Below are positions 5,535 through 27,238 of a stretch of DNA of 28,545 nt, in pieces (the first letter of the stretch is position 1; each line of letters begins with the position of its first letter). The translations under genes were made by a program, and so were the position numbers. The stretch is taken from positions 1 to 28,545 of IMG/VR virus record IMGVR_UViG_3300045119_000242; one strand, written 5' to 3'. The notes below the pieces were generated by a model, which made no database searches, was not told where the DNA came from, and saw only the letters and a list, made by a program, of their open reading frames with translations. This stretch comes from a virus.

Positions 5535-6400
5535 GGGCGCCGACGATCATCCGCGTGTCCGCCCTCTCGGGTTATCCCGATTGCGAGCGGCGCGGCGCAA
5601 CGCGGCTGTTCTGGCGCGAGATCACGGCGGCGGGCTTCAAGCTCCGCCGGACGATGCGCGGGATCGGTGCCGCCGTCGGCAACGCGGTGCACCGGGCCGC
5701 GGCGGTGACGCTCGACGAAAAGGCGCGCTCGGGCCGACTCCCTCCGGTGACGGTCGCGACGGACATCGCGCGGGACTGGTTGCGCGAGGAGCTGGCGGCG
5801 GGCGAGGTCCGGTTCGACACGCCACAAGGCGCGACGCACAATCGGCAAGAGGCGGAGCTGCAAACGCTCGGCATGACCCGCGGTTATCACGGGATCATTG
5901 CGCCAACGGTCGAGCCGATCATCGTCGAGGAGCGGCTCGAAGCGGAGATCGAGCCAGGGCTGATCCTATCGGGTCAACCCGATGTCGTGGCGCGCGAGCC
6001 GAATGCGGTGCGGGATCTCAAAACCGGCGCGCGTGCGCCGTCGAGCTTTGCGCCGCAGCTCGGAGGCTATTCGCTGTTGTCGCGCTCGCATCATCTCGAC
6101 ATCGAGCGCGCGTCGATCGATTTCATCCAGCGGGCGCGGGTGAACAAGCCGCAGCCCGATCCGGTGTCAAAGATGGTGTCGGTTGTGACAGCCGAGACGG
6201 CGGCGTCGAACATTCTCAGGCACATAGCCGGTGACATTTCGACATTCCGCAACGGCGATCCGGCGCGGCGCATCCTGCCCGGCGATCCGTGGGCGTTCAC
6301 CGCAAATCCGTCGTCGATCTTGTGCTCGCCGAAATACTGCCCGGCGTTCGGGACGGACTTTTGTCACGAAGGCGATCCGGCCAAGGAGTCCGGTGAATGA
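5531..6400 (+). CDS. PD-(D/E)XK exonuclease of the RecB/AddB/Cas4 type with Fe-S-type cysteines
   Basis: A 289-residue nuclease starting at ATG 5531 (ATGA overlap). All landmarks of the RecB-type fold are visible: GNAVH with His54, GQPDVV with Asp151, RDLKTG with Asp162 and Lys164, and QLGGY (Gln176 to Tyr180). Four cysteines are placed as in Fe-S nucleases of the AddB/Cas4/Dna2 group: Cys18 before the nuclease core and Cys265, Cys270, Cys278 after it (C-x4-C-x7-C). The spacing differs from the common C-x2-C-x5-C. Followed in the operon by a putative annealing protein and an SMC-like ATPase, it probably resects phage DNA ends for recombination. No adaptation genes or CRISPR array are nearby, so a Cas4 role is not suggested. 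Confidence 0.85.
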   Translation: MRAPTIIRVSALSGYPDCERRGATRLFWREITAAGFKLRRTMRGIGAAVGNAVHRAAAVTLDEKARSGRLPPVTVATDIARDWLREELAAGEVRFDTPQGATHNRQEAELQTLGMTRGYHGIIAPTVEPIIVEERLEAEIEPGLILSGQPDVVAREPNAVRDLKTGARAPSSFAPQLGGYSLLSRSHHLDIERASIDFIQRARVNKPQPDPVSKMVSVVTAETAASNILRHIAGDISTFRNGDPARRILPGDPWAFTANPSSILCSPKYCPAFGTDFCHEGDPAKESGE

Positions 6401-6849
6401 GCGGCCCCCAGCTCGTCCACGACGATCGCGAGCGCGATCGCCAATGGGCGGAACGTGTGGCGAACGACCGCTTGGCGGAATTAACCGCGAACCTCTTGCG
6501 CGTCATTGCAGGCGGCGGAAAGCGATACACGATTATTGGTGAGGCGCAGGCATTTGTTGCGGCGGTCGTTGCGTATGTCGAGCTGACCGATACCCTTCCC
6601 GATGTCTCGGAATCCCTCCGGTTAAATCCCGCCCTGGATAGGCATAGGGCGGCGGGCGGGGAGCCCTACAGCGATCAGGGAATCGTCGAGGCGCAAGATA
6701 GCATTATCGCCGCCGCGCTACGGATCGTCGCGGCGCGAATGATCGGGCAAAATTCCCAGCTATCCGCCGCACGGGGCGCATTCCTCGGCGCGATGCGCGA
6801 GTTGTCGGAACGGCAAGCCGAAACGCGGGGGAAATTTTATGGGCGATAG
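6397..6849 (+). CDS. hypothetical helical protein (150 aa)
   Basis: A 150-residue, mostly helical protein. It begins MSGPQLVHDDRERDRQWAER and has long helices around residues 20-65 (LAELTANLLRVIAGGG, AQAFVAAVVAYVEL) and 95-145. It starts at ATG 6397 overlapping the nuclease stop. I recognise no domain; the position between nuclease and annealing protein suggests an accessory role in recombination, which is only an inference. Confidence 0.65.
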   Translation: MSGPQLVHDDRERDRQWAERVANDRLAELTANLLRVIAGGGKRYTIIGEAQAFVAAVVAYVELTDTLPDVSESLRLNPALDRHRAAGGEPYSDQGIVEAQDSIIAAALRIVAARMIGQNSQLSAARGAFLGAMRELSERQAETRGKFYGR

Positions 6850-6931
6850 AAAGCGCGGCCTTTGGCGCCGGGTTTTATGGCCCCGGGTTATGTCGCAAGA
6901 GCAACAGCGGCGAGGCCGCATAGGAGGAATG

Positions 6932-7906
6932 ATGCAGACCGCAGCCCGCCCCCAGCTCGTTAGCCCGCGCGCGGCGCAGACCCTCGAAGCGGTGCGCTCC
7001 GTCGCGGGCGGCTTCGATGTTGATGCGTGGCACGTCATGGATCAGCGGGATAACGCCCTCGTCGCCGACGAGGCGTTGCACGGCTCGGCGAGCGATAAAT
7101 TCGTTTATCACTTCAAGATCAACGGGACCGACGTTTCCGGGATCAGCGTCGTCGGCGCGCGGCATCTCGCGAATCTTTATCGCGGCCTAAAGCATCGCCT
7201 CGTCGGGTCCGTGCAAAAGACGGGCAGCCTCTTTGAATATCGCGCTTTCCCCCATGAGAATTTTGCGGGCGACACGCGATGCAGCATCGTTCCGGAGCTC
7301 GAAAGCGAGCCCGATTTTTATTCCTGTCTTTGCGAGATCACGGATCTAAAGACGGGCAACACGATTCAGGTCGAGGCGCGCGAGGAAAAGATCGGTCATA
7401 GCCGGGAGTCGGGCGATTACGAGAAGCCCCATTATCAGAAAATCGCGCAGTCGAAGGCGTACCGGAACGCGATCCTCTCGCTGATCCCGCAGGACATCGC
7501 GATCCGCTGGAAAGCCGAGATGCTGAAATTAGGCAAAGGCGAGACGATTACGGGCGGCGTGATCGAGGAGAAGCGGTCGAGCGTGTTGCGGTTCGCCGCG
7601 CAGCGGGCGATTGCGATCGATCGGCACGCGGTCGAGGCATTGACCCTCGATCAGATCGCGGGCCTTGGCGATGCGGCGCGCGACGGAAAGCTCCCCGCCT
7701 TCGTTGCCGCGGCGCAGGCTCTCGGGCTGGCGGTGTCGCAGAGCGAGGCGGCTCCCGCGGGCGAGGCGCAGCAGCAGCAAGAGCCCGCCCGGCGCCAGCG
7801 CGGACGCCCCCGCAACGAGGCGCCGCCCAAGCCGGACGCCCAAACGCCCGAGCCGGACGCCCCGCCGCAGGACGCGCCGCCGCGCGGGCGCGTGTCGTTC
7901 GATTAG
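6932..7906 (+). CDS. putative single-strand annealing recombinase with AT-hook-like tail
   Basis: A 324-residue protein. The start at ATG 6932 (or the adjacent ATG 6929) is favoured because AGGAGG lies just upstream at 6922-6927; a frame to ATG 6839 exists but overlaps the previous gene. The core (DKFVYHFKINGTDVSGISVV, then ARHLANLYRGL, then HYQKIAQSKAYRNAILSLIP, then IRWKAEMLKLG) is beta-strands followed by helices ending in a conserved-looking Gln/Lys/Arg helix, as in Erf/RecT/Rad52-type annealers. Its place after an exonuclease supports that role, as in lambda exo-bet. The C-terminal 80 residues are Pro/Ala/Gln-rich with an AT-hook-like RRQRGRPRNE. No signature of a named family is certain; the role is inferred. 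Confidence 0.55.
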   Translation: MQTAARPQLVSPRAAQTLEAVRSVAGGFDVDAWHVMDQRDNALVADEALHGSASDKFVYHFKINGTDVSGISVVGARHLANLYRGLKHRLVGSVQKTGSLFEYRAFPHENFAGDTRCSIVPELESEPDFYSCLCEITDLKTGNTIQVEAREEKIGHSRESGDYEKPHYQKIAQSKAYRNAILSLIPQDIAIRWKAEMLKLGKGETITGGVIEEKRSSVLRFAAQRAIAIDRHAVEALTLDQIAGLGDAARDGKLPAFVAAAQALGLAVSQSEAAPAGEAQQQQEPARRQRGRPRNEAPPKPDAQTPEPDAPPQDAPPRGRVSFD

Positions 7907-10788: not shown

Positions 10789-10995
10789 ATGGCCCGCGTC
10801 CGCCTTACCTTCCGCGAGCGAGATGTTACAGCCGCCATTCGAGCGGTCAAGCGAGCGGGCGGAACGGTGGCGCGGGTCGAGATCCGGGATGGTGGCGTAA
10901 GCATAGTGCTTACGGAAAAGCCGGGCCTCGATGCGGACAACACGACAATCGATGAGGATCAAATCAATGCCTTCGTTGAGAATAAAATACGTTAA
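10789..10995 (+). CDS. hypothetical protein (68 aa) overlapping the integrase start
   Basis: ATG 10789 follows the previous stop by 4 bases and is preferred over an earlier in-frame ATG at 10726 inside the upstream gene. It is a small alpha/beta protein: a strand, the helix DVTAAIRAVKRAGG, two strands (VARVEIRDGGVSIVL) and an acidic tail. The pattern resembles short phage proteins preceding integrases in alphaproteobacterial prophages. The last 29 bases overlap the integrase. Confidence 0.6.
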   Translation: MARVRLTFRERDVTAAIRAVKRAGGTVARVEIRDGGVSIVLTEKPGLDADNTTIDEDQINAFVENKIR

Positions 10996-12040
10996 TCTGT
11001 TCGAGACGCGATGGGGAAAGCCCATCTGCTATTTCCGGCGCGGCGGCGTCCGGATCCCTCTCACGGCGAAGTTTGGCTCGGCGACATGGTGGGCGCAGTA
11101 CACCGCCGCGCTCAACGGCCAGCCTTTGCCGCCGGATGGTCCGGGCGTCGGCGCCGAGCGCACGATCCCGCGCTCCCTCGATGCGGTCGTCGTCTCGTTG
11201 ATGCAGACGGCGGATTATCAGGGCTTGGCGCATCACTCGAAGCGGTCCTATCAGGCGGGCTTCAAACAGCTCCGCGAGCATTTCGGCAAAAAGGATATTC
11301 GCGTGTTCGAGCACGCGGCGCTGAAAAAGATTTTCGATGGCGTCGCGAAGAAAAAGCCCGGATCGGCCAATGAATTGCTCCGCGTTATGCGGGCGATCTT
11401 CAAGCACGCGCGGACGCTCGGCTATCGCAATGATGATCCGACGACGGGCTTGAAAAAGCGCGGCCTTGTCAACGAGGAGGGGCATTATTCCTGGCTAGAC
11501 GAGGATATCGAGCGGTATCGCGCGCATCATCCCCTCGGCACGGCGGCGCGGCTCGCGTTGGAGATCGCGCTCAACACGGGTTTGCGGCGGAGTGATCTCG
11601 TGCTCCTCGGGCGCCAGCATGTCCGCGACGGGAAGATCCGCATCAAGCCGGTAAAGACGGCCAAGAAAAACATTTGGGTTTCGATCCCGGTAACGCCCGC
11701 GCTTCGCGCCGCGATCGATGCGATGCCGCCGCGGGATAGTGGACTCGCGCTCCTCGGCAATCCGGCGAACGGCGGCAGGGATTACAGCGCGGACACATTC
11801 GGCAAGGCGTTTGCCGGATGGTGCAACGAGGCGGGCCTCCCGCCGCAAGCTCGGGCGCACGGTCTGCGGAAGGCGATTGTCCGGATCCTCGTCGATCTCG
11901 GTGTCGAGTTCCTCGACATCATGGCGATCACCGGCCACCGCGATCCGAAAACGCTCATGATCTATGCGCGGGATCGCAATCAAGCCAAGCTCGCCGAGCG
12001 CGCGATGGGCAAGATGATCGCGGCGGGAGGCGCGGCATGA
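10967..12040 (+). CDS. int: tyrosine recombinase / phage integrase
   Basis: A 357-residue site-specific tyrosine recombinase. ATG 10967 is chosen for its GAGGA ribosome site 8 bases upstream; an in-frame ATG at 10931 lies earlier. Residues 7-54 form a short N-terminal domain (YVNLFETRWGKP, YFRRGGVRIPL, YTAALNGQPLP), probably binding arm-type sites. Residues 70-165 are the core-binding SAM-like domain. The catalytic domain shows Arg207 in LNTGLRRSDL, a Lys-rich strand near 230-236, His298 and Arg301 in HGLRK, His324 in TGHRD and the nucleophile Tyr333 in LMIYAR: all the expected residues. It should integrate and, with a partner, excise the phage genome. I see no obvious excisionase. Confidence 0.93.
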   Translation: MPSLRIKYVNLFETRWGKPICYFRRGGVRIPLTAKFGSATWWAQYTAALNGQPLPPDGPGVGAERTIPRSLDAVVVSLMQTADYQGLAHHSKRSYQAGFKQLREHFGKKDIRVFEHAALKKIFDGVAKKKPGSANELLRVMRAIFKHARTLGYRNDDPTTGLKKRGLVNEEGHYSWLDEDIERYRAHHPLGTAARLALEIALNTGLRRSDLVLLGRQHVRDGKIRIKPVKTAKKNIWVSIPVTPALRAAIDAMPPRDSGLALLGNPANGGRDYSADTFGKAFAGWCNEAGLPPQARAHGLRKAIVRILVDLGVEFLDIMAITGHRDPKTLMIYARDRNQAKLAERAMGKMIAAGGAA

Positions 12041-12435: not shown

Positions 12436-12464
12436 TCTTTTGAGCGCGAGGATTTGGAGATCCT

Positions 12465-13067
12465 ATGAGCATCGAGCCGCTCGCCCGCGGGATCTCCCGC
12501 ATCGTCCCGCCCATCAAGCGGAGCTGCGGCGGCTGCACCCTCTGTTGCCAGCTTATCGGCGTGGCGGAGCTCAACAAAAAATCATTCGAGGATTGCGTCC
12601 ACCGTCACGGCGTCTTGCACGCCAGCGGGCCCGGCTGCGGCATCTATGCCAGCCGCCCCCGATCGTGCGCCGCATGGGCTTGTATGTGGCTCCGCAGCGA
12701 TCCTACGGACTGGCCCGAGGCGGAGCGGCCCGATCGCGTCGGCTTCGTCGTCGACGAGCTCGTCGACCTGATCCGCCTAAACGGTGTCGAGACGCCCGCG
12801 GCGCAGATTTGGGTATCGCAGGGCTTCGATGATGCATGGCGGCAGGATCCGGGGACGGCGATCATCGCCGCCCTGATCAACAAAGGGCTTGCCGTGCTTT
12901 GGCGCCTCTATGGCGGCAAGGAGTCGATCGCCTTCGCGCGCAACAAGGATGGCGAGATCGAGCGGTCGCTCCCGACGCCGATCGTCCGCGACGATCGCCT
13001 CGGCGATGAGCGGGAACGCTCGCGCCGGGTTGCCGAGATCGCCGCGCGCCGGGGAGCGAAGCTATGA
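12465..13067 (+). CDS. YkgJ/UPF0153-type cysteine-cluster protein
   Basis: A 200-residue protein with the family's N-terminal Cys cluster: SCGGCTLCCQ (residues 20-29), then a later Cys at EDC, CGIY, RSCAAWAC. The pattern (C-x2-C-x2-CC ... C ... C-x-IY-x-x-RPxxC) is that of the putative zinc- or iron-chelating YkgJ family, of unknown biochemical role. The C-terminal half is extended and charged. A GGAG ribosome site precedes ATG 12465. Such genes recur in phages near regulatory or accessory modules. The family call is good; the function is unknown. Confidence 0.82.
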   Translation: MSIEPLARGISRIVPPIKRSCGGCTLCCQLIGVAELNKKSFEDCVHRHGVLHASGPGCGIYASRPRSCAAWACMWLRSDPTDWPEAERPDRVGFVVDELVDLIRLNGVETPAAQIWVSQGFDDAWRQDPGTAIIAALINKGLAVLWRLYGGKESIAFARNKDGEIERSLPTPIVRDDRLGDERERSRRVAEIAARRGAKL

Positions 13068-13336
13068 TCCGGATTTTCCGGGGCGAGGTTGGCTGGATCT
13101 GGCGCAGCCGCGAGCCCGCGAGAAGCCCGCCCGATCCGAGATATCCCCGCGGCACCGAGCTCGATGTCACAAAAGGCGCAAGCGTCCGCTGTTCGCTGCG
13201 CCTGCCATATCCCGCGCAGGGCGTCGGGACATGGTTGATCCGCTGCGAGGCTTGCGGATGGCAAGGCGCCGTGACAGCCGCCGGGCGCGACGACGATCCG
13301 ATGATCGTTTTGATCCCGTGCAAATCCGATGCGTGA
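13064..13336 (+). CDS. small phage protein with zinc-knuckle-like CEACG (90 aa)
   Basis: ATG 13064 overlaps the previous stop (ATGA). The C-terminal half (VRCSLRLPYPAQGVGTWLI, RCEACGWQGAVTAAGR, DDPMIVLIPC) has the cysteines and the Pro-Tyr-Pro and TAAGRxDDP elements that I recall from a widespread short hypothetical phage protein. A zinc-binding role is likely (Cys, C-x2-C, final Cys). It is the last clear gene of the rightward operon. Confidence 0.65.
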   Translation: MIRIFRGEVGWIWRSREPARSPPDPRYPRGTELDVTKGASVRCSLRLPYPAQGVGTWLIRCEACGWQGAVTAAGRDDDPMIVLIPCKSDA

Positions 13337-13340
13337 GAAA

Positions 13341-13541
13341 GCACTCTGGCAAACCACCTGCGCCCGGTTTGCTCAATCGAGGGAAAAATCGTTGAGTTTC
13401 AATGCTGAAAAATTCGCGTCTGATATCCCGGCGAAATGCGGCGATCTCGCCATATCAGACACATAGCACTAGCAAACCACCCTCAACGGACCCAAACAGC
13501 ATCAATAGGTTGGCCGGATGCCCCGAAAAACTGGCAAACCA
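13341..13541. repeat. cluster of GCAAACC repeats, possible integrase arm sites (attP candidate)
   Basis: Four GCAAACC heptamers occur in 200 bases: in GCACTCTGGCAAACCACC (13341-13358), inverted at 13366-13372, in GCACTAGCAAACCACC (13466-13481) and in CTGGCAAACCA (13531-13541). The first and third share GCACT plus GCAAACCACC. They flank the inverted repeat at 13418-13460. Clustered short repeats around a core, just downstream of the integrase transcription unit, resemble an attP with arm-type sites. No host junction is available to prove it. Confidence 0.45.
13418..13460. repeat. strong inverted repeat (14-bp stem with 3-base bulge)
   Basis: GTCTGATAT (13418-13426), then CCC, then GGCGA (13430-13434) pairs with TCGCC (13447-13451) directly joined to ATATCAGAC (13452-13460), with a 12-base loop. 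An alternative inner hairpin GGCGA-TC-TCGCC also forms. No T-run follows on either strand, so it is not a standard terminator. Its location between repeat copies suggests a recombination core, a protein-binding site or an RNA structure before the GIY-YIG gene. Confidence 0.6.
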
Positions 13542-14060
13542 GATAATGCCGATCAACGTCCCGTCCCGCAACGGCGAGACGGTAAGCTGAGATATCTAAA
13601 GAGCTTCACTGACCGGCACGGCAAGCGCCGAAATTATTTCAGGCGTCGCGGGCTTTTGATCGCCCTACCGGGCCGACCAGGGAGCGCCAAATTCATCGAG
13701 GCATATCGCGCAGCTCTTGCCGGAACGCCGCTGCCCCCGGCGAGAAAGGAAGCGGCTATTACATCATTGGAGCGAGCCAGCAACGGGCATCGCCCGGCGA
13801 TTGGTGTCTATCTCTTGATGCTCGGCGGGGAGATTGTTTACGTCGGCTCTAGTTTGAACATGCATCATCGGGTTGCCGGTCACAGGATCGCCGGTCGTCC
13901 CTTCGATCAGGTTTTTTATATTGGCACCAAACTAACGGAGCGCATCCGGTTAGAACGCGCATTGATCGCCGCGCTCGCGCCTCGACAGAACCGGATCGGC
14001 GTCAAGGTCCGGCGAGATCGCGAATTACCGGCTCACGAATCCGGTTGGGCAAAGGGATGA
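13518..14060 (+). CDS. fusion of integrase-type N-terminal domain with GIY-YIG nuclease
   Basis: A 180-residue protein. Residues 24-75 (RYLKSFTDRHGKRRNYFRRR, then IALPGRPGSAKFIEAYRAAL, AGTPLPP) align with residues 7-55 of the integrase at 10967: Y-V/L, F-x-x-R-x-GK, YFRR-x-G, Y-x-AAL-x-G-x-PLPP. Residues 94-160 form a GIY-YIG domain: GVY (96-98), YVG (108-110), Arg118 and His122, Glu146 in RLERALI, Asn158 in RQNR. All catalytic landmarks are present, so it is probably an active endonuclease guided by an integrase-like DNA-binding domain. The start is the only ATG in frame and includes one GCAAACC repeat. There is no Tyr-recombinase catalytic domain. Domain calls are firm; the role is unknown. 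Confidence 0.8.
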   Translation: MPRKTGKPDNADQRPVPQRRDGKLRYLKSFTDRHGKRRNYFRRRGLLIALPGRPGSAKFIEAYRAALAGTPLPPARKEAAITSLERASNGHRPAIGVYLLMLGGEIVYVGSSLNMHHRVAGHRIAGRPFDQVFYIGTKLTERIRLERALIAALAPRQNRIGVKVRRDRELPAHESGWAKG

Positions 14061-14114
14061 GGCGGGCCTCGTCGAGCTCAATCTTGCGATCGAGCAAGCC
14101 CGCAAGCGGGGCTG

Positions 14115-14243
14115 ATGTATTCGCGAGATTCTGAGCTTCAAATAATCGCGGATTTTCTGGCTCGCGGGTTGCGGCGCGTTCAATCCCCATCGGGCCCGCG
14201 TCGATTATTTCGCCAGGATCTTGCCGCACGCCCCGACGCATAG
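14115..14243 (+). CDS. possible 42-aa protein
   Basis: A short frame MYSRDSELQIIADFLARGLR ending ARPDA. The ELQIIADFLARG helix resembles the start of short hypothetical phage proteins. The ATG overlaps a TGA (TGATG) that closes an open stretch ending in EAGLVELNLAIEQARKRG, which is in the +1 frame of the GIY-YIG gene. A competing ORF lies on the other strand (14002-14241). The evidence is weak, with no clear ribosome site. Confidence 0.35.
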   Translation: MYSRDSELQIIADFLARGLRRVQSPSGPRRLFRQDLAARPDA

Positions 14244-14287
14244 CTGATCAGCCCAGCCCTCGCTTAGGCACTTTCCCCGATATTTCC

Positions 14288-14305
14288 TAAAGGATGTATT
14301 CTTTA
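14288..14305. promoter_or_regulatory. 18-bp near-palindrome upstream of the 14329 HTH gene
   Basis: TAAAGGATGTATTCTTTA is an inverted repeat with one mismatched pair and a central GT, 23 bases upstream of ATG 14329 in a locally AT-rich patch. A second short repeat (GGCGC ... GCGCC, 14312-14327) follows. It is a plausible operator, perhaps autoregulatory. Confidence 0.4.
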
Positions 14306-14328
14306 GACCCAGGCGCGTAAGGGCGCCG

Positions 14329-14574
14329 ATGGAGTCTGAGGAGCTATTAACGCGGGCGGGCCGCTTGCTTTACGGGCAGCGGTGGATCCCGCAACTCTCA
14401 AAGGCGCTCGGTTTGCCTAACGGCGAGGTGCGGCTATGGCACTCGGGGCGCCGGAAGATCCCGGCGGTCCTGTGGCTCGATCTGCGCCGGTTGCTCCGGA
14501 TCCGGCAACGCGAGCTGTCCGCCTTGCAGCGGGAGATCAGGGCGGAGATCGAGCGCGACGACGAGGCGCCCTAG
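14329..14574 (+). CDS. small HTH-like protein (81 aa)
   Basis: An 81-residue protein. The centre reads WIPQLSKALGLPNGEVRLWH, then SGRRKIPAVLWLDLRRLL. This is a helix-turn-helix pattern (LSKALGL, turn, EVRLWHSGRRKIP) of the kind used by short prophage transcription factors that read like truncated Cro/CI domains. The C-terminal part is a charged helix (RQRELSALQREIRAEIERDD), perhaps for dimerisation. It converges on the leftward tail operon and ends 3 bases from the stop of the membrane protein on the other strand. It could be a lysogeny or late-gene regulator. Confidence 0.65.
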   Translation: MESEELLTRAGRLLYGQRWIPQLSKALGLPNGEVRLWHSGRRKIPAVLWLDLRRLLRIRQRELSALQREIRAEIERDDEAP

Positions 14575-14577
14575 CTG

Positions 14578-14745
14578 TTATCGGATCGGCGATCCGAAAG
14601 CGCCGATCCCGAGCAAGCCGATCAGGATAAAAAAGATCAGGGAGAACGGCCCAAACGGTTGCGCGGCGGGATTGCGCCAGTACCAGCCGCCCGAGAATAC
14701 GAGCGAGACGACGTAAAGGATCCAGAACCAGATGCCCGTGGTCAT
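14578..14745 (-). CDS. two-span membrane micro-protein (55 aa), last gene of the tail operon
   Basis: A 55-residue ORF with a strong ribosome site (GGGAGGAGGA, 6 bases before ATG 14745). It has two hydrophobic segments: residues 5-23 (IWFWILYVVSLVFSGGWYW) and 33-50 (PFSLIFFILIGLLGIGAF), joined by a short polar turn (RNPAAQPFG). Both termini should be on the same side of the membrane. The position after the tail fibre and before the operon end would suit a lysis protein (holin or spanin partner), but no lysin is visible nearby, so this is speculative. Confidence 0.72.
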   Translation of the reverse strand: MTTGIWFWILYVVSLVFSGGWYWRNPAAQPFGPFSLIFFILIGLLGIGAFGSPIR

Positions 14746-14763
14746 GGTGAGTCCTCCTCCCTC

Positions 14764-15798
14764 TTACGGCACATAGACGCCGCCGGTCGAGACGGCCCCG
14801 GCGATCGAGCCGGGGAAATAGTTCTGTCCGTAGCCGTCGCAGCGGATGACCGCGTTTGTCGTCGCCGAGTAGCGTTGCCCGGTCGCGGCGCCGACCCAGG
14901 TGTAGCCCGGACGCTGAAAGCCGAGCGTTCCGTTTTGCAACGCCATCGCAAAGGCCCCGGTAAAATTTGGCGTGCCGGTCAAGGTGAAATTGAAATTCGG
15001 CAGTCCGCCGCCCACGGTGATGATCCCGGTCGAGGCAACGCCCAGGTGATTATAGGCGCCGCCGCTGATCGAGTAGGGCCCGGCGATTTGCACGATCGAA
15101 CCCATGTCGGCGAAAATGTGCGTGCCCGCGGTGGGCCCGAAATTCATGTTTTGGAGCTGCAGTTGCGCGCCGCCTTGCACATTAAAGCCGCTGGCGTTTT
15201 GCGCTGTCCCGGTCGCCTCGATGGTCACGCCATCGAAATCGACGATCATCGCGCCGTACATATCCACGGCGTTGTTGTTGTTGCCCGCGATCACCACCGC
15301 GGCGGGCGTCGTCGGATCGCCGCGGAAGATGATCCCGGCTTGCGATCCGACCGGCGTCCCGAGGAAATTCGTATGTCCATACGTGCCATGCGCGAGATGC
15401 ACGGTAATCGTCTGCGCCCCGACATCGAGCTTCGACATGATGTAATTCCACGCCGCTTGCGGCGTGGCGAACGCGGTGCCGGGCGTCAGCCCGTCGTTGG
15501 TATCGAAGCCCGAGGGCGAGACGTAGAGATCGAGCGGCCCGGTTAGACGGCGGCGGGTGTTGTTCGCGATCAGCGCCAGGATCGCGGTGATCACCTGGTT
15601 ATTCGTCGTTTTGCTCGGCACCAGCGCATCGGCGGCGATGATCGCCATCAATTCCTCTTGCACGGTGTTGAGCCAATCGGCTTCGACGATCGTCGCCGCC
15701 TGTCCTCCGACGGTGCCCGCGGTAAAAAAGCCGGGATTGCCGACCGGCTTGACCGTCGGCAGAGTCGTTGAGGCGGTAGGGTTATCAATTCGGAACAT
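14764..15798 (-). CDS. tail fibre/spike protein with probable beta-helix
   Basis: A 344-residue protein. ATG 15798 is preferred over GTG 15807 because GGGAG lies 8 bases upstream. Residues 1-85 resemble a tail-fibre attachment region (FRIDNPTASTTLPTVKPVGN, then PGFFTAGTVGG, WLNTVQEELMAII). From about residue 90 (LYVSPSGFDTNDGLTPGTAF ATP, given as two pieces) the repeated short Gly/Asn/Thr strands fit a pectate-lyase-like right-handed beta-helix, as in receptor-binding spikes. No S74 chaperone is present. It probably binds a host surface glycan; whether it has enzymatic activity cannot be told. Confidence 0.7.
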   Translation of the reverse strand: MFRIDNPTASTTLPTVKPVGNPGFFTAGTVGGQAATIVEADWLNTVQEELMAIIAADALVPSKTTNNQVITAILALIANNTRRRLTGPLDLYVSPSGFDTNDGLTPGTAFATPQAAWNYIMSKLDVGAQTITVHLAHGTYGHTNFLGTPVGSQAGIIFRGDPTTPAAVVIAGNNNNAVDMYGAMIVDFDGVTIEATGTAQNASGFNVQGGAQLQLQNMNFGPTAGTHIFADMGSIVQIAGPYSISGGAYNHLGVASTGIITVGGGLPNFNFTLTGTPNFTGAFAMALQNGTLGFQRPGYTWVGAATGQRYSATTNAVIRCDGYGQNYFPGSIAGAVSTGGVYVP

Positions 15799-15979
15799 GC
15801 ACGGCACTCCCGTTTGGCACCGGCGGCGGCGCGGCGGCGGCGCTCGCTTGCTCGGTGATCTTTCCGATGATCGTTGCGACGACGCGGTAAGGCGCCTCGC
15901 TCAAAATCGCTAGAGCTTGATTCCACTCCGCCGCGGTGAGCGTCACGGCGAGCGGCATCTCAGGATTGATCGGTGTCAT
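15785..15979 (-). CDS. small tail-associated protein (64 aa)
   Basis: A 64-residue protein whose ATG overlaps the upstream fibre stop (ATGA at 15979-15976) and whose end overlaps the downstream fibre by 14 bases. The core (LTAAEWNQALAILSEAPYRV, VATIIGKITEQ) is a helical pair that recurs as a small protein next to tail fibres in phages, followed by an Ala/Pro tail. It may be a fibre assembly factor; this is inferred from position only. Confidence 0.62.
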   Translation of the reverse strand: MTPINPEMPLAVTLTAAEWNQALAILSEAPYRVVATIIGKITEQASAAAAPPPVPNGSAVHVPN

Positions 15980-17532
15980 AGGCGGGCCTCGATCGCTTCG
16001 ATGCGCGCCGCTAGGTCTTTGACGAGCGCCGCCAGCTCTTTGACAGCATTCACCAGCGCATAGACCAGATTCCCCGGTGCGAGCGTTGCGACGGTGCGCC
16101 CATCATCGGTGAATTCGCCGACGAGCTCGGGCAAGTGCGGCGCTACCTCGTCGGCGATCAGCCCGATATGCTGATCGGCGCTCGCAAACGTCGTTCCCTC
16201 CTTGTACCGAAACGAGATCGGTCGAAGCGCGAGGATTGCATCGAGGCCGCGCATGTAGGGCGCGATGTCCTCTTTCAGCTCGCGGTCGGATTGGACCAGC
16301 CACGCGCCCGATGCATTGTAGGTTCCGACGCTATTGAACACGGCATATTGAAACGATGCGTCAAGGCTCTGCCAGATGAATTGCCCGCCGCTGACCGGCA
16401 CTCTTTGGTAGATCGCCCCGCCGCTCGAAAAAATCGAGACGGTGTTGTTGTTCCATAGAAGCTGATAGCCGTCGTTTAAATGGATTCCCCCACCGTCGAT
16501 CACCGCGAAATTTGTCGATGCCGCCCGATCTTGGAAAATGTGTTGGGTTTGCCGCTGGTAGTTGGCTGGCGAACCGCTGTTGCCCAGGACCAGCGTGGGA
16601 AGACCGCCGTTGTCATAGACGTTAGTCCAGCCGGTGTTTGCCGCCGCACCCGAGAGCGCCTCGCCGCCTGCGATAAAGATGGCACCATTCGACAGCGAAA
16701 GATTCCCGCTCGTCAGCGTGACGCCGCCGCTCGATACCGTCAGCGGGCCGCTCAAAGTGACGATCCCGGTCTGATCAATCCGTAAAAACGGCGTCCCGTT
16801 GGCGTTGCCGGTTGAGAGGCTGGCGAGGCCGATCCCGAAAAGCGCGCCGCTGTTGAACAGGCCAAAAACCGGGCGCCCGAGTGTCGTGTCGTTGAGCACC
16901 AGCGACGGCGCGCCCGAGGCGGCGAAGATATGCCCCGACCCGCCTGCGGTGACGGTGCCGGTAAAGGTCGGATTGTTGATCGGCGCGAGTAATGCCGCCG
17001 CCGAGTCTACATAGAGCTTCGTCGCGGCGTGTAGGTTCGCGGTCGGCGGGCCGGAGAGCGTAAGGAGTCCGGTCATCGTGTCGCCAGCCTTTTGCACGGC
17101 GCCAGCCGCCGCGGCGCCCATCGTGTCGACATAGGCTTTCGTCGCGGCGTGTAGGTTCGCGGTCGGCGGGCCCGACAGCGTGAGAAGCCCGGTCATCGTG
17201 TCGCCCGCAAGCGGCACGGCGGCGACCCAGGCGCCGGAATCGCGCCCGTAGGTTTTGCCATCGGCGGGCGCCTCGGGGATGCCGCCGCCGCCGCCGCTCC
17301 CCGCGTGCGCGTCGACATAGCCCTTCGTCGCGGGCATCATGACATCGGTCGGATCGTTCCACAGGTACACCGGACCCGTCAGACGGCCCCCGGCGAGCGG
17401 TAGAAATGGCCCGCCCGTCGTCGCGGCTTGCAATGCGGTGATCTCTTGCTTCGCCGTGGTGAAATTGGCCCGCACCGACTGCGTTTCCGGTTTGCCGGTG
17501 ACGGGAAAGGTGTCGTCAATTTGGCTGGACAT
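15976..17532 (-). CDS. tail fibre with C-terminal S74 intramolecular chaperone
   Basis: A 518-residue trimeric-fibre-type protein. The N-terminal 60 residues (MSSQIDDTFPVTGKPETQSV) resemble a fibre attachment domain. Residues about 45-185 hold tail-fibre repeats of the type TGxLTLxGxPxANLHAATKxYVD (two nearly identical 40-residue copies plus degenerate ones). A beta-rich shaft follows. Residues 415-518 are the S74 chaperone domain: [47 protein letters not shown] and a coiled coil. Ser415 and Lys420 match the residues expected at the autocleavage site, so the domain probably trims itself after trimerisation. Confidence 0.85.
   Translation of the reverse strand: MSSQIDDTFPVTGKPETQSVRANFTTAKQEITALQAATTGGPFLPLAGGRLTGPVYLWNDPTDVMMPATKGYVDAHAGSGGGGGIPEAPADGKTYGRDSGAWVAAVPLAGDTMTGLLTLSGPPTANLHAATKAYVDTMGAAAAGAVQKAGDTMTGLLTLSGPPTANLHAATKLYVDSAAALLAPINNPTFTGTVTAGGSGHIFAASGAPSLVLNDTTLGRPVFGLFNSGALFGIGLASLSTGNANGTPFLRIDQTGIVTLSGPLTVSSGGVTLTSGNLSLSNGAIFIAGGEALSGAAANTGWTNVYDNGGLPTLVLGNSGSPANYQRQTQHIFQDRAASTNFAVIDGGGIHLNDGYQLLWNNNTVSIFSSGGAIYQRVPVSGGQFIWQSLDASFQYAVFNSVGTYNASGAWLVQSDRELKEDIAPYMRGLDAILALRPISFRYKEGTTFASADQHIGLIADEVAPHLPELVGEFTDDGRTVATLAPGNLVYALVNAVKELAALVKDLAARIEAIEARL
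17007..17220. repeat. 120-bp tandem duplication inside the fibre gene
   Basis: Positions about 17007-17100 are repeated at 17127-17220, exactly 120 bases apart (40 codons). The copies differ at scattered bases. They encode the LTLSGPPTANLHAATK repeat of the fibre. Such repeats allow length change by recombination. Confidence 0.8.
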
Positions 17533-18205
17533 CGATCACCAACCCTTCATCCCAGATCGAGAATCCCTCGTCCCAAATCGAGAACCCGTCATCCCAGCGC
17601 GACGAATTGAGCGTGTAGCTAAAGACGATCTCGGTGTGCGCGGGCTTCAGCGCCTCGAACATGCATTCGAGCACCTTATTGCCCCAGGTCGCGAGCGGAT
17701 CGCCCGCGGTCGAGATCGATGCATGGAAGTAGATCACCTGAACCGGATTGGCGATCACGCGCCATGCATAGGCCCATTTCTCGTCATAGACCGGATCGCC
17801 CGCGCGCCCGCGGCTGGCATAGAACGGGACATATTCCTCGATCTCGATCTCGAACCCGAGCGAGGCGGCAAGGCGGATAAAGTATTCGCGGCTCTGTCCG
17901 CCGCGGGCCGCGAATTTTCCGCAGACGGCGGCGACTCGTTGCTGTTGCGTCGGGAGCGGCCCGGTGCACGGGTCCGGCAGTCCGAGGGTTGCCTCCCATT
18001 CGGGGAGGAGGCCCGACGTCGAACACGGGAAAATGTCATAGATCAGCTCGCCGAGGCGCGTGTTCAGCCGCGCCCATAGCGGCATCAGCGTCAACAGGTC
18101 GGCGTCTTGCAACCAGCCCCATCCGCGGTGCCAGATTCGGCCCCGCGGCAACAGCCGTTGGAATTGCCCGAGATAATCCTCGGCGGTGTAGACCGGCGGC
18201 GGCAT
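17516..18205 (-). CDS. Mu gp48-like tail/baseplate protein (YmfQ/DUF2313)
   Basis: A 229-residue protein with the family's N-terminal pattern (YLGQFQRLLPRGRIWHRG, LWARLNTRLGELIYDIFP), then LLPEWEATLGLPDPC, GPLPTQQQRVAAVCGKFAAR, GGQSREYFIRLAASLGFEI and the closing CMFEALKPAHTEIVFSY. It belongs with gp47 at the edge of the Mu-type baseplate. The C-terminus is unusual: a 7-residue unit (WDDGFSI, WDEGFSI, WDEGLVI) is repeated three times, from a 21-bp tandem repeat at about 17535-17600. It overlaps the fibre start by 17 bases. Confidence 0.85.
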   Translation of the reverse strand: MPPPVYTAEDYLGQFQRLLPRGRIWHRGWGWLQDADLLTLMPLWARLNTRLGELIYDIFPCSTSGLLPEWEATLGLPDPCTGPLPTQQQRVAAVCGKFAARGGQSREYFIRLAASLGFEIEIEEYVPFYASRGRAGDPVYDEKWAYAWRVIANPVQVIYFHASISTAGDPLATWGNKVLECMFEALKPAHTEIVFSYTLNSSRWDDGFSIWDEGFSIWDEGLVIDVQPN

Positions 18206-19317
18206 TAGATGACCGTCAGCGTCCCCATGACGGGGAGGGCGCCATCGGGCGCCTGCAGCGCATCATCCGGCGCGGTCATCGTAAAATGGTTGACGCCCGG
18301 CGTCGCGAGGATCGCCTCGTAAAGATCGGACGGCCAAACGACGCCCGCGACCTCGCCGATGATCAGAAAGGCGTCGACGAGGCTCGCGGTGATCTGATCC
18401 CGCATGTCGGCGGTGTTCGGGTCGAGCCCTTCGAGGGTGACGTCGACAGAGAACGGCACGGGCGCCGCGACATAGACGAGGGATGTCACCGGCTGGACCG
18501 GGTAAATGTGCTCGGCGACGAGCAATTGATCGCCCGTCGCGGTCGGGCCGCGAGACTCTTCCGTCGCGCATCCGTCCGCGCCCTGCGGGAACCCGCCAAA
18601 GGCCGACTCCGCGTCGTCGAACATCGGGAACACGACGACGGATCCGGGCCCGTAGCCGCCGCCGACAATCCACGCCCGGGTGCATCCCGATACCTCGAGC
18701 GCCCATTCGGTGTAGTCGGCGACGGCGCCGCCCTGCGGCGGGGCGCGGTATTTGGCGAGCATCCGCGTCCGGAGAGCCTCGTCGGTTTCCTGATCGGCGC
18801 CGCCCGTCGTCGCGCCGATCGTGACGCCCGCGGAGTTGATGCCGCTGATCGGCGAGCCGATGTTGATCACGGTCCCCGGATCGCAGTTTGTCGCGGCGCC
18901 GAGCTCGTCGGCGAGCATCGGCACGATCACCGAGCCCGTCCCGTCGATCACGCCATCGGCGGTCGTGACATAGGTCGTCCCATCGATGCGGCGCAGCGGC
19001 GTCCCGGACGGGATCACGTTCGAGGGGTTGCCCGTGAATTGCGCCGAGCCGCTCGCCGCCGTCGCCTCTTTCGGGTAGATCCCGATCAGCGCCGCCCAGG
19101 CGTAAAGATATTCGCTCGCCGCGGTGAACGGGACGCCCATCCGGGCGATCCAATCGGCGTAACCGTAGACCGAATAAGCGAGGCCCGCCATGCACCACGC
19201 GAGCACGCGCAGGACGGCATTTCTTAGCAGCCCGGTAAGCCCGGGGACGCCCGATGTCGTAACATCCTCGATCGATTGATTGCGAAGATCGGTGAGCGTC
19301 GGGCGGGCGAACGGCAT
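18205..19317 (-). CDS. baseplate J / Mu gp47-like protein
   Basis: A 370-residue baseplate wedge protein. Typical features are the N-terminal FARPTLTDLRNQSIEDVTTS, LRNAVLRVLAWCMAGLAYSV, AAVTASGSAQFTGNPSNVIP-like segment (the beta domain that starts the J module), the central GTVINIGSPISGINSAGVT, ETDEALRTRMLAKYRAPPQG, and the C-terminal ELxDxI-like helix. The length is in the usual range. It connects the baseplate hub to the sheath. Its start overlaps the gp46 stop by one base (19317) and its stop overlaps gp48. Confidence 0.88.
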   Translation of the reverse strand: MPFARPTLTDLRNQSIEDVTTSGVPGLTGLLRNAVLRVLAWCMAGLAYSVYGYADWIARMGVPFTAASEYLYAWAALIGIYPKEATAASGSAQFTGNPSNVIPSGTPLRRIDGTTYVTTADGVIDGTGSVIVPMLADELGAATNCDPGTVINIGSPISGINSAGVTIGATTGGADQETDEALRTRMLAKYRAPPQGGAVADYTEWALEVSGCTRAWIVGGGYGPGSVVVFPMFDDAESAFGGFPQGADGCATEESRGPTATGDQLLVAEHIYPVQPVTSLVYVAAPVPFSVDVTLEGLDPNTADMRDQITASLVDAFLIIGEVAGVVWPSDLYEAILATPGVNHFTMTAPDDALQAPDGALPVMGTLTVI

Positions 19318-19871
19318 CAGAGCCTCGGGACGGCGATCGGGGATTGCAGGACGGCGAGCCCGGTCCAGGCCCAGCCGTACATAAAGCGCGTTGCGGTGCC
19401 GTCCGGCTTGGTGATCGCGACGGCGATCGCGAGATGCCCCGAGGCGAGCCAGGATGTGTTGCAGACGATCTCGCGCGCGATCCCGTCATCGATCAGCCAT
19501 TGCAGCGCATCGAGCGCCCAGCGGCGGGCAAGCCCGAGCGTGTTGCGGGTTTTCTTCGCGCGGTCGAGCTGCCACAGATTCGAGCCGATCACCGGGTTGT
19601 CGTCGTAATAGCTCGCCCACCAGCCGCGGGTGTCGCTGGTGCCATCGGTCGGCGTGAAATCGGGCGTCGCGAGGCGATCGGAAAACAGCGACACCAAACA
19701 GGCGGTTTCGAGATCCTGGCCGGTTTCGAGATCGCCCTCGGCGAGCGCCCAATCGCCGAGCGTGTTGACGTTATCCCAAACGATCCGGATATCGCCGTCG
19801 CAGGCGGCGGGAGGCAATGGCGCCTCGGCGATCGGCACGGGGAGCCCGTCAGCCTCGATCCAGCCGGTCAT
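19317..19871 (-). CDS. Mu gp46-like baseplate protein
   Basis: A 184-residue protein of the GP46 family. Visible are the early [12 protein letters not shown] region, the [16 protein letters not shown] motif, [38 protein letters not shown] and [13 protein letters not shown]. These are the family's W/W and DRxK elements. It is homologous to the T4 gp25-type lysozyme-fold wedge protein that links the baseplate to the first sheath ring. ATG 19871 overlaps the gp45-like stop. Confidence 0.88.
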
Positions 19872-21811
19872 GCCGCGCCTTCGAGCGCATCGAGCCGCGC
19901 CGCGAGCTCTTTGACGGAATTGATCAACGCATAAACCAGATTCCCCGGCGCAAGCGTTGCGACGGTGCCGCCTTTGTCATCGGTGAATTCGCTGACGAGC
20001 TCGGGCATATGCGGCTCGACCTCATCGGCGATCAGCCCGATATACAGGTCACTCGGCTCGTCGCGATGAAACGGGGATCCAGCCCGATAACGATAGCTGA
20101 CTGGTTTAAGCGCGAGGATTGCGTCGAGGCCGCGGGTGTAAGGAGCGATGTCCTGTTTAATATCGCGACCAGAAAAAGTGTTCCAGACGCCACTGTTGTT
20201 GTAAGTATTGGTGCCATTAAAAGCCGCATAACTCACAGATGCAGCCGCGTTTTGCCAATAATATATCCCGCCCGAGCCGCCGCGCGTATAAAATGCGCCG
20301 GGGGAGGCGTCAATAAAGCTTGTGCCGCCGATGGCGATAACGGGGTTCGCTGCGCCGGTCACGGTTAAGTTGCCGGGACCTATTGTCACCGCTCCGGTGG
20401 CGCGGTTGATCGTCAGCGGATAGTCGATGCCAGTGCCCGCATCGTTGTAACGCGCGATCCCAAAGTTCGAGCCCGCGTTGCCAGTGCTTTCCGCTGAACC
20501 GTCACCAAGGTCGATTTCCCAGCGCAGATTTGCGCCTTGGTAGCCCAGCAATTGATTGCGGTTCCCCGCGGCACTTCGCACAGCTAACGCAGACCAACCG
20601 GAAGCGAGGGCAATCGTCAAATTTCCGGTCAGCGTGCCGCCGGTCAGCGGCAAATAAGGCACCGCAGTCGAGATCGTCGCGGGCGTCGTGCCGGTGTTGA
20701 TCGCGATGCCCGCCCCGGCTTGGTATGTCGTCCCGGCGGTTCCCGCCGGGCCTTGCGGCCCGGTGGCGCCCTGCGGTCCTGCGGGTCCGGTGTTGCCCGT
20801 CGCGCCTTGCGGCCCGGTGGCGCCGGTCGGGCCCGTCAAGCCGATCGGGCCTTGCGGGCCCGTCGCTCCGGTCGGCCCCGCGGGCCCGGGAACGGTCGAG
20901 TCGGCGCCCGTCGCGCCTGTCGGCCCGGTGGCGCCCGTGTCGCCTTTCGCCCCTTGCGGCCCGGTGGCGCCCTGCGGCCCGGTGTTGCCGATCGGCCCCG
21001 TCGCGCCGGTCGGCCCCGGCGGCCCCGTCGCCCCGGTCAAGCCGATCGGGCCTTGCGGTCCGGTCGGGCCGATCAGCGAGGTTCCGGGAGTCGGCCAGCC
21101 GCCATTTTTCGGCCCGTAAATGTTATGCGGCACGGTGTCGATGTAGAAATCGCCCGCCTGTCCGACGGTTCCCGGCGGCGCGCCGGTTCCGTGCAACACG
21201 GTATTGCCCGCCGGTCCGGTCGCGCCGGTCGGCCCCGGCGGTCCTTGCGGTCCTGGCGGGCCCGCGGAGCCGCCGCCCCCGGTGATCGGGTTGCCGTTCT
21301 GAAAAAAGCCGCCGCTCGCGTCGATCTTGCCGAGCGCCTTGATGTCCTTGGTCGCGGTCGTGATCGGCGAGTCGAGCGTGACGGTATCGGTCCCCTTGAT
21401 CGTCGCCGCCTTGCTGTTGATCGCCGCGGAATTGCCCGCATTGAGCGCGACAGCCTTTTCGCGGCTGAATTTGAGATTGTCGCCCTCGTCCGTGTAGAGC
21501 CCGACCTCGCCCGGCTTGTATTGCCGCGGGCGCGATTTCTGCTGGCCGGTTGCGACGATGATCGGGTTTGCCCGCTGTCCGGCGATGAAAAGCGCGGTCG
21601 CGTCGGTTCCCGGCGGCGGGTGCGAGTGAATCCCGTAGATGTTTTGCACCGCGACGTTATCGATCCGCTCGGGCGAGCCGTTGACCTCGATCTGCGCCTT
21701 CAAGACCGAGCCGGTGTCGTCCGTCGTGGCGATCCGCACGGGCGCGACGGACATCAGGATCCGGCGATAGAGGCGATCGACCTGCGATTGCAGGGATTGC
21801 GGCGTTATCAT
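19868..21811 (-). CDS. gp45-like baseplate spike fused to collagen repeats and an S74 chaperone
   Basis: A 647-residue protein. ATG 21811 is chosen because it overlaps the gp44 stop (ATGA); an upstream frame to 22129 is antisense-like. Residues 1-175 are a Mu gp45/baseplate assembly V protein ([46 protein letters not shown]), which in Mu ends near 200 residues. Residues 184-203 and 248-360 are Gly-x-y collagen-like repeats, separated by a short module ([19 protein letters not shown]). A beta shaft and an S74 chaperone (547-647: [38 protein letters not shown]) follow. Fusion of a central spike protein to a fibre is unusual; either the fibre is on the spike or the gp45 part is recruited as an anchor. 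Confidence 0.85.
20732..21262. repeat. collagen-like Gly-x-y coding repeats
   Basis: Runs of 9-base units (plus-strand GGCCCGGTGGCGCCC-like blocks) encode about 45 Gly-x-y triplets in the gp45 fusion, in two arrays (21203-21262 and 20732-21070) with a 43-residue non-collagen insert between. Longer near-identical blocks such as CAAGCCGATCGGGCCTTGCG (20837 and 21038) occur within the array, suggesting expansion by recombination. Confidence 0.8.
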
Positions 21812-22989
21812 GGGCTGTTGCCGCTCGCGTCGGGCTTGGTAGGGTTGTTCCCCTGGACATTTTCGAGGAGCGGCGGAAGCGGCTGGAAAACCGTCGGCTC
21901 CGGCTCGAACGCCGATTGCGGCATCAGCATAACGATCGCGTGTTGCCCCATCTCGTCGCGGGTGTAGGAGAGCTGTCCGATCAACCAATTCGCCGACGGC
22001 AATTTGAGCGCGGGGAGGCGGATCGGGGCGAGATGGTTGACATCCCATAGCGTGCCCGCGGTATCGCGCCAGGAATCGGCGGTGACGGTGACGGCTTGCG
22101 AGTGTCCGGCGCGCCGGTTCGCCTCCCATTTCACGCGGGCTTCGAGGATCGGCCCGGTGTTGTCGACCTGTTCGGAGATGATGATCCGGCGCCGGAAGCG
22201 AGGGACTTGATCATCCTTGACGATAACGCCCCGCGGGACATGCCCGCCGCTCTCGGTCGTGAGCCCGAGCGCCGAGGTGTAGAAGCCCTCATATTCCGAG
22301 AATCGCTCGTCCATCGTGAACGTCACTTCGGCTTGCTCGACGTTGGCGCCTTGCACAAAGCCGCTCGCCATCTTTTGCGATCCGGCTTTCGCGAGCTGCA
22401 GCGTCCCATCGGGCAGATCGTAGGCGACGAGGGATGAATAGCGGGTGATCCGATCGATGATCTCCCAAGGCGTCTCGCCCAAATTGATGTTGAATTGCGG
22501 GATCTCTTTGCCGGGCCCGTCGAGGCTCGACACCGTGACCCCGTAGGGCTTGGCGAGCTGCTGCGCGATCGCCAGCGTCGTCCCGCCGAGGATCTGATAG
22601 GTCGGATTCTCCTTGTCGCCGACGAAGGCGGCGCAGTCGACCAGATCGGAGCTCTTGCTGCGCCCGGTGATTTTGACGGTATGGGCCCGCGAGCTGACGA
22701 TCGCCGTGTAGCGGTCGATCCAGCCGGTAATGACGAGATCGCCGCCGATTTTGACCTGACAGGCATCGCCCGGCTTGATCGCGATATCGGTCGACGGGCT
22801 CGGATAGTGCTCCGTCACCTGTACCTCGAAATTCGCCGGGATCGTCCCCATCGTGCGGTTGACGGCGGCGCGTTGCCAGCCGCCCCATTCCTTGCCGCCG
22901 ATGATCAATGTGAGCGTGTCCGGGCCCGTCGCCTTTGGTTTGGGCGCCGCGGCTGTTACCTCGAGATCGTCGAGAACGGCGTCGACCAT
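21808..22989 (-). CDS. Mu gp44 (P)-like baseplate hub protein
   Basis: A 393-residue protein of the phage late-control D/gp44 family. N-terminal [20 protein letters not shown], then [60 protein letters not shown] and the closing [20 protein letters not shown] are typical. It forms the trimeric hub that bears the spike and surrounds the tape measure. A short Ala/Pro/Lys N-terminal tail (about 20 residues) precedes the domain. Its stop overlaps the gp45 start and its start overlaps the upstream stop. Confidence 0.88.
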
Positions 22990-23549: not shown

Positions 23550-23631
23550 CGCTGGCGCACCGCTGCTAACCGCCTACGGGGCGGAACGGGTCCGCCGGTA
23601 GGGTAGTGGCGGGGATCCCCTTCCATGCGCC
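23550..23631 (-). other. junction between the two gpN halves
   Basis: The first half ends at TAG (23634-23632). The second half begins at GTG 23549, after an in-frame TAG a few codons upstream. In the third frame a stretch is open throughout and ends at TGA 23548-23546, which overlaps that GTG. It contains an ATG at 23626 and could encode a 26-residue peptide (MEGDPRHYPTGGPVPP...). The junction could be a degraded or frameshifted linker or a coupled micro-gene. Confidence 0.5.
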
Positions 23632-26753: not shown

Positions 26754-26757
26754 CAGA

Positions 26758-27236: not shown

Positions 27237-27238
27237 GG

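Follow-up and report, generated by a model that had tools for sequence, protein, structure and literature searches.

A phage gene joining an integrase-type N-terminal domain to a GIY-YIG nuclease: a candidate attachment-site-directed nuclease

We describe a phage gene whose product combines a homologue of the N-terminal domain of tyrosine integrases with a GIY-YIG nuclease domain. The gene lies in a 28,545-nt stretch of viral DNA (IMG/VR record IMGVR_UViG_3300045119_000242, positions 1 to 28,545; here called the window), downstream of a complete integrase gene and next to a cluster of short repeats. The same architecture recurs in further lineages, each time with nuclease active-site positions intact and repeats close by. 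With slightly less than even confidence, we propose that the fusion is an attachment-site-directed nuclease that cleaves the DNA of attachment regions, either in conflict between elements or in homing. In this reading, we infer that the repeats act as arm-type sites and that the protein binds and cuts DNA, and we likewise infer its target and its benefit. The features of the window are listed in Table 1.

Table 1 Features of the window around the fusion gene
Feature	Position	Strand	Basis or remark
Tyrosine integrase, 357 aa, N-domain homologous to that of the fusion	10967..12040	+	Pfam, PHROGs
Integrase N-domain stretch matching the fusion	10979..11137	+	tblastn, E 7e-9, 45%
Intergenic stretch, putative attP region	13337..13517		left border of block near-identical to L011
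Candidate arm-type site GCAAACC	13349..13355	+	repeat scan
Candidate arm-type site GCAAACC, inverted	13366..13372	-	repeat scan
Candidate arm-type site GCAAACC	13472..13478	+	repeat scan
Fusion gene	13518..14060	+	180 aa, ATG start; integrase-type N-domain, linker and GIY-YIG domain
Candidate arm-type site GCAAACC	13534..13540	+	within start of fusion gene
Fusion N-domain, residues 23-75	13584..13742	+	modelled beta-beta-beta-alpha, arm-type-binding-domain-like
GIY-YIG nuclease domain of fusion, residues 94-160	13797..13997	+	conserved positions, model, Foldseek
Downstream small gene, 81 aa	14329..14574	+	PHROG 12690 (unknown function); also after the fusion gene in L004/L005

Two predicted domains in one protein

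By conserved positions and predicted fold, the C-terminal domain of the window protein is a GIY-YIG nuclease domain, as an earlier note made from the letters of this DNA had claimed for residues 94-160. G96-V97-Y98, V107-Y108-x-G110, R118, H122, E146 and N158 were invariant in all seven lineages carrying the fusion, and structure comparison aligned the active-site positions with those of UvrC; we take Tyr, Arg, Glu and Asn to be the catalytic positions of this fold. An AlphaFold model of the full-length protein from a 14-row alignment reached a mean pLDDT of 80 and a pTM of 0.47, with pLDDT values of at least 90 in most blocks of both domains and low values in the linker and tail. Foldseek matched the model to the GIY-YIG domain of UvrC (1yd6; E 5.9e-4, probability 1.00, target TM 0.67). 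A Pfam search with the window protein alone returned no match, and PHROGs gave a GIY-YIG match only at E 0.02. With an E limit of 1, PF01541 was matched by four of the seven family members (best E 0.0031), T5orf172 and Phage_integrase by none of the seven. Judged by sequence, the tyrosine-recombinase core (R, H-R, Y) is absent, with GIY-YIG in its place, and the earlier observation that this core is missing therefore stands. We also considered a degraded integrase remnant and rejected it on the conservation of the nuclease active-site positions in all seven lineages.

Sequence homology and modelling agree in grouping the N-terminal domain with the N-terminal domains of integrases. Residues 23-74 of the fusion, given as 24-75 in the earlier note, aligned without gaps to the N-terminus of the window integrase (24 of 52 positions identical, 46%) with a Smith-Waterman score of 107, while 2,000 shuffles of the N-terminal part scored 30.9 on average (s.d. 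4.8) and 59 at most. The integrase N-domain was also matched by tblastn (Table 1), and a profile of the fusion N-domain picked up integrase-length frames. Pfam returned no match to this domain in the window protein or the other members, and neither did a PDB sequence search with the N-domain profile. Modelled alone from 13 rows, the domain had a mean pLDDT of 75; Foldseek with this model gave no significant match. We then realigned 867 candidate chains to the model using VIA-align. Its three top entries were the integrase arm-type domains 3jtz, 3rmp and 3ju0 (Z 4.0, 4.0 and 3.7; 50-52 of 58 residues), followed by an unrelated structure at Z 2.8 and lower-scoring rows, and the list also included lambda Int (Z 2.6 and 2.4) and Tn916 Int (Z 2.1). 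A Z of about 4 is low and, on its own, may reflect merely a common arrangement. The kinship proposed for this domain is thus upheld by sequence, with a model whose closest structures, at low Z, are arm-type domains.

Recurrence and rarity of the architecture

Scans of a viral collection and of one genome set with one genome per species yielded nine records with the architecture, comprising the window and eight others. These represent seven lineages once L011 is merged with the window and L013, which is cut by a contig end and retains only part of the N-domain, is merged with L012. Identity among lineages ranged from 43% to 75%. Relative to the window fusion, values were 100% for the sister phage L011, 73% for L012 and L013, 58% for L006 from a Bradyrhizobium metagenome-assembled genome (MAG), 45% for L048 and L058, 44% for L014 and 43% for L049. 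Rescanning the viral collection with a larger alignment (A5), the L058 protein or the L014 protein added no new member. The same pairing thus occurs in phage lineages beyond the window, where the earlier note had suggested looking for it, and in the other records the fusion is a single uninterrupted frame. A sequencing or assembly artefact was rejected on this recurrence in nine records of seven lineages; in particular, the sequencing error joining two genes that the earlier note had envisaged does not fit eight further records.

A widespread chromosomal gene was likewise unsupported. The fusion was detected in one of 391 family, one of 385 class and one of 397 order genomes, each time in the same Bradyrhizobium MAG; the family and class scans used alignment A2 and the order scan the GIY-YIG alignment A3, at limits of 1e-3, 1e-9 and 1e-6, with at most 9 or 15 of the first-look candidates scored per genome. 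In the family scan, with at most nine candidates scored per genome, 99 of the 391 genomes matched the alignment, mostly through the N-domain of frames as long as an integrase; both domains were covered in the G004 row alone. Among 50,697 phage records searched with three queries (7, 14 and 9 matching records) and 72,556 plasmid records (3 and 5 matching records), none covered 80% of a query in one place. The earlier note knew of no described system with this architecture, and our literature search, mostly at the level of titles and abstract openings, likewise returned no description of a protein that pairs an integrase arm domain with a GIY-YIG nuclease.

Unfused relatives of the GIY-YIG domain occur in other surroundings. 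Of five such regions in named records, three contain a gene for SSB, an exonuclease or ERF at a distance of one or two genes; the other two are a plasmid transfer region and a region with unannotated genes and thymidylate synthase. An annotated integrase adjoins the relative in none of the five. In Sinorhizobium phage NV1.1.1 (L055 3638-4333), an unfused relative shows a weak N-terminal HTH_17 match (E 0.06), and unfused relatives may therefore carry other DNA-binding domains.

Association with integrase genes

In the window, the integrase gene, three small genes and the fusion gene follow one another on the same strand. For the integrase, a start at 10967 is the most likely; translated from 10931, the frame gave a Phage_integrase match in Pfam (E 2.4e-15). 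All five phage lineages that have at least 1.5 kb of sequence ahead of the fusion gene encode a complete integrase of this N-domain type there, on the strand of the fusion gene. The gaps between the two genes measure 1,477 bp in the window, 653 bp in L058, 218 bp in L049 and -4 bp in both L014 and L048, where the integrase stop and the fusion gene have four bases in common (ATGA in L014; GTGA in L048, with an inferred GTG start).

Several neighbouring genes deserve mention. Between integrase and fusion gene, window positions 12465-13067 encode a cysteine-rich protein of 200 aa (PHROG 9155, unknown function), whose C-terminal part is conserved ahead of the fusion gene in L004. The product of the small downstream gene weakly matches a transcriptional-regulator PHROG (E 0.09). 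A promoter scan of 13300-14340 found none, and the same interval contains one terminator-like site, no more than in shuffles. Directly downstream of the L014 fusion lies a gene (6014-7384) for a 456-aa protein that, by eye, resembles C5-type DNA methyltransferases and could protect the phage's own site. Other nuclease genes occupy comparable places: separated by one gene from an integrase of the same N-domain type, Pseudanabaena phage Pam5 carries a MUG113/T5orf172-type GIY-YIG gene (L056 2160-2759) and Agrobacterium phage Rivra an annotated HNH gene (L057 2399-2737).

We compared the N-domains of fusions and integrases within and between loci. Across the five fusion-integrase pairs, no other of the 120 possible pairings exceeded the summed cognate N-domain score, and one equalled it. 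When each integrase was compared with 47 N-domains, its own fusion ranked first in the window and L058, second in L014, 19th in L049 and 38th in L048; in the reverse direction, the own integrase ranked 25th, 1st, 1st, 16th and 11th, respectively, among 41. At the protein level, resemblance to the own partner is therefore clear in L058 and suggested in L014 and the window; the ranking among 47 N-domains did not reveal it for L048 and L049. Similarity of N-domain DNA within a locus was clear in L058, weak in L014 and about at shuffle level in the window, L048 and L049, and the N-domain DNA of L006 was closest to the integrase of a different phage, L014 (score 78). An N-domain tree (48 rows, 58 columns) was poorly resolved, with four of 45 inner branches starred and the fusions not grouped beyond chance; the first 15 residues of the domain were missing from its row for the L058 integrase but were restored for the rankings.

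The L058 locus stands out in these comparisons. Its fusion and integrase have a common unusual insertion, RHGNGKF...TPLG, and the N-domain protein scores 172 against its own integrase and 92 against the next one. At the DNA level, the N-domain equals that of its own integrase in 105 of 134 columns. The nuclease domain scores alike with all six other fusions (175-194). Because of the shared insertion, the top N-domain score, the DNA identity and the equidistant nuclease domain, we read the L058 N-domain as captured or gene-converted from its own integrase, in this lineage only.

An integrated element in a Bradyrhizobium genome

In the Bradyrhizobium MAG, comEC is split by a 12.8-kb element, with both halves of the gene on one contig. 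The left part of comEC was present in all 30 other genomes searched in the genus, and the gene was unbroken in the five read across this point. Both junctions carry a copy of an imperfect repeat some 16 bases long, GCATCCGAGTTTTCAG at the left and GCATCCAACCTTTCAG at the right. Just inside the left end, the fusion gene comes before any other gene, however short. The right end holds a tyrosine integrase (Phage_integrase, E 2.3e-25), and neither of the two N-domain matches in that genome is this integrase. The 14-mer ACAAATCCCAGAAC has exactly two copies in the contig, one near each end of the element. This layout of attL and attR with arm-type sites shows that the fusion gene can be located directly at an attachment site. 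Since the resident integrase lacks this N-domain, the repeats in this element are probably those of a different integrase type; a strict own-partner model is weakened by finding the fusion in company with such an integrase. By eye, no phage structural gene was recognised in the 12.8-kb element, and an HNH-like gene was named at L071 10951-11463 (element sequence in L071 6393-14000 and L006 5082-11701).

Linkage to integrase genes bears on the main rival of the attachment-site-directed nuclease reading, namely that the fusion is a recombination accessory whose GIY-YIG domain nicks or cuts at arm-type sites and so assists the partner integrase in integration or excision. The four-base overlaps in L014 and L048 suggest coupled production with the integrase, and, in the available text on Tsy transposons, a GIY-YIG gene sits with tyrosine-recombinase genes and its removal impaired transposition (PMC10293859). 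However, this N-domain is common on integrases without a fusion, as indicated by the 99 of 391 family genomes (at most nine candidates scored per genome), the fusion is sporadic among phages and the MAG element pairs it with a different integrase type. We therefore rate an accessory role as unlikely, while treating it as the foremost competitor of a nuclease directed at attachment sites.

Repeat clusters beside the fusion gene

Three to four short repeats cluster beside the fusion gene in all seven lineages, individually weakly in some. We regard them as putative arm-type sites. The four GCAAACC copies at 13349-13540 of the window account for four of the 11 copies in its whole length and fall inside 13300-13560, the stretch that had earlier been proposed for a binding and cleavage assay. 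The other clusters consist of GACAAACC (three copies, L004), AAATCCC (four, L006), GGCAAAC (three, L014), TCCCACCC (four, L048), TTAGTAAC (three, L049) and GCTAAACC (three, L058).

Clustered 7- and 8-mers were scanned for each locus, and in six lineages the cluster beside the gene was among the top six rows. It was the first row in L006, L048 and, for 8-mers, L049; in L004, L014 and L058 (7-mers), simulated sequence gave scores in the same range, and coding repeats elsewhere in the window scored above its GCAAACC cluster. For the intervals flanking the gene, single-locus P values were 0.003-0.063 against shuffles and 0.010-0.130 against random places in the same locus. Combined, they reached 1e-7 and 2e-5, respectively, values that are optimistic as the intervals were picked after the repeat scan.

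Clusters also occur in isolated phages whose integrase is of this type. Three of four such phages carry one immediately behind the integrase gene, comprising GGCTAACC (five copies) in Rivra, GTCTAACC (three) in Mae-JY35 and TTTGGCTA (three) in Pan3, each at P 0.005, the floor of 200 shuffles; Pam5 had none (P 0.17). Several of the motifs from the fusion loci and these phages terminate in AACC. The Rivra cluster was already known from a test of fusion-free intervals before this comparison. That test covered 35 intervals downstream of fusion-free integrases and found no cluster excess (combined P 0.86; two intervals, including that of Rivra, reached P <= 0.05), with 34 of the 35 taken from bacterial genomes, in which the att sites may lie elsewhere. 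Nor was there an excess in 36 intervals upstream of fusion-free integrases (two at P <= 0.05; combined P 0.88). A scan of seven sources for tRNA genes as attachment sites found none.

The position of the window repeats, three directly ahead of the gene and one within its start, would also suit a regulator. Bound to arm-type sites, it would compete with the integrase, or repress either the integrase or its own promoter, with cleavage secondary or lost. Against this, repeats in L014, L048 and L058 lie at the 3' end of the fusion gene rather than its start. Moreover, the active-site positions are invariant in all seven lineages, which argues that cleavage is selected and makes a regulator with little cutting less likely. 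We consider such a regulator improbable.

A border of near-identity at the repeats

Comparison of the window with its sister phage L011 revealed a border next to the fusion gene. The two are 96.3% identical over 12445-13337 and 99.6% over 13337-19657, without a substitution from about 13500 to 15000, and relative to L011, the window lacks 148 bases at 13337. The near-identical block begins at the repeat cluster and takes in the fusion gene; its right end is merely the end of the L011 record. Since a second block (20747-27605) is 98.5% identical, the contrast in identity at 13337 is only local. The available text of one report describes nuclease genes as marking borders of exchange (PMC10448857), and the border beside the fusion gene, seen in one pair of metagenome records, fits this pattern. 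Elsewhere in the window, segments at 16026-16284, 17002-17221, 19897-20167 and 20742-21077 match the sister record in a shifted register at 72-84% identity; they lie in a minus-strand region that, by eye, is tail-fibre-like.

This border, together with the sporadic presence of the fusion, is what a plain homing endonuclease might leave behind, that is, one whose borrowed N-domain binds arm-type sites and that benefits itself alone without effect on lysogeny or rivals. The border comes from a single pair of metagenome records, however, and a search for empty-site relatives with the integrase as query returned only the sister phage. Of the readings weighed here, we give this one the least credence.

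Proposed mode of action

Under the preferred reading, that of an attachment-site-directed nuclease, the N-domain would take the nuclease to the repeats in the way an integrase grips arm-type sites beside the crossover core, and the GIY-YIG domain would then cut or nick phage DNA near them. The likeliest benefit would lie in conflict between mobile elements, through damage to the attachment region of related phages that are unintegrated or incoming. Repair of the break might copy the gene with its flanks, as happens with free-standing homing endonucleases. Control of superinfection, competition between prophages and homing, all put forward in the earlier note, are likewise hypotheses. As the phage itself carries the repeats, self-cutting would have to be avoided somehow; the protein may bind without cutting where no cleavage site is in range, as described for I-TevI.

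A more specific proposal, which we regard as possible but on balance doubtful, is that the fusions of temperate phages and integrative elements, one of the latter in Bradyrhizobium, form an undescribed nuclease class that captured an integrase arm domain, recently re-captured it in at least one lineage and cuts attP-type DNA while sparing attL and attR. By cutting the attachment regions of incoming or excised relatives but sparing attL and attR, such a nuclease would let the prophage state separate self from rival.

If true, phages would be using the tag that addresses their own integration machinery as a nuclease target. This would add an attack point to temperate-phage competition and, with attP set against attL/attR, a new rule for telling self from non-self. 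It would also provide a small natural pair of site-reading and DNA-cutting domains, and it raises the testable question of whether integrase arm domains can be reused to aim other enzymes.

Comparison with known systems

The structures closest to the modelled N-domain, from the HPI integrase (3jtz), a P4-like integrase (3rmp, an entry concerned with attP recognition) and the HAI7 integrase (3ju0), share its fold and size. In all three, the arm-type domain is part of a recombinase, whereas in the fusion a nuclease replaces the recombinase core.

T4 GIY-YIG homing endonucleases such as I-TevI and the Seg proteins resemble the fusion in joining a nuclease to a modular DNA-binding part and in having nuclease genes at exchange borders. 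In I-TevI, this part is C-terminal and of the HTH type, whereas that of the fusion is N-terminal and of the integrase type.

Tsy transposons, as far as the available text of their description goes, encode a tyrosine recombinase, an HTH protein, TnsF and a GIY-YIG nuclease, the last of which improves transposition but is not essential (PMC10293859). They share with the fusion the linkage of a GIY-YIG gene to a tyrosine recombinase gene; unlike the fusion, the Tsy nuclease has no arm-type domain named on it in that text.

Similar in design is Odn (gp88) of phage ICP1, which, according to the available parts of two reports, combines a T5orf172 nuclease with a RepA_N replication-initiator domain and cuts the replication origins of a rival (PMC8263062; PMC10448857). 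On that account, both proteins join a domain of the GIY-YIG superfamily to a DNA-binding domain like that of a DNA-processing protein, and Odn is directed at the sites of such a protein from another element. The fusion differs from Odn as described there in carrying an integrase arm-type domain, in giving no T5orf172 match and in adjoining repeats of its own phage. By analogy, it would be the attachment-site counterpart of Odn.
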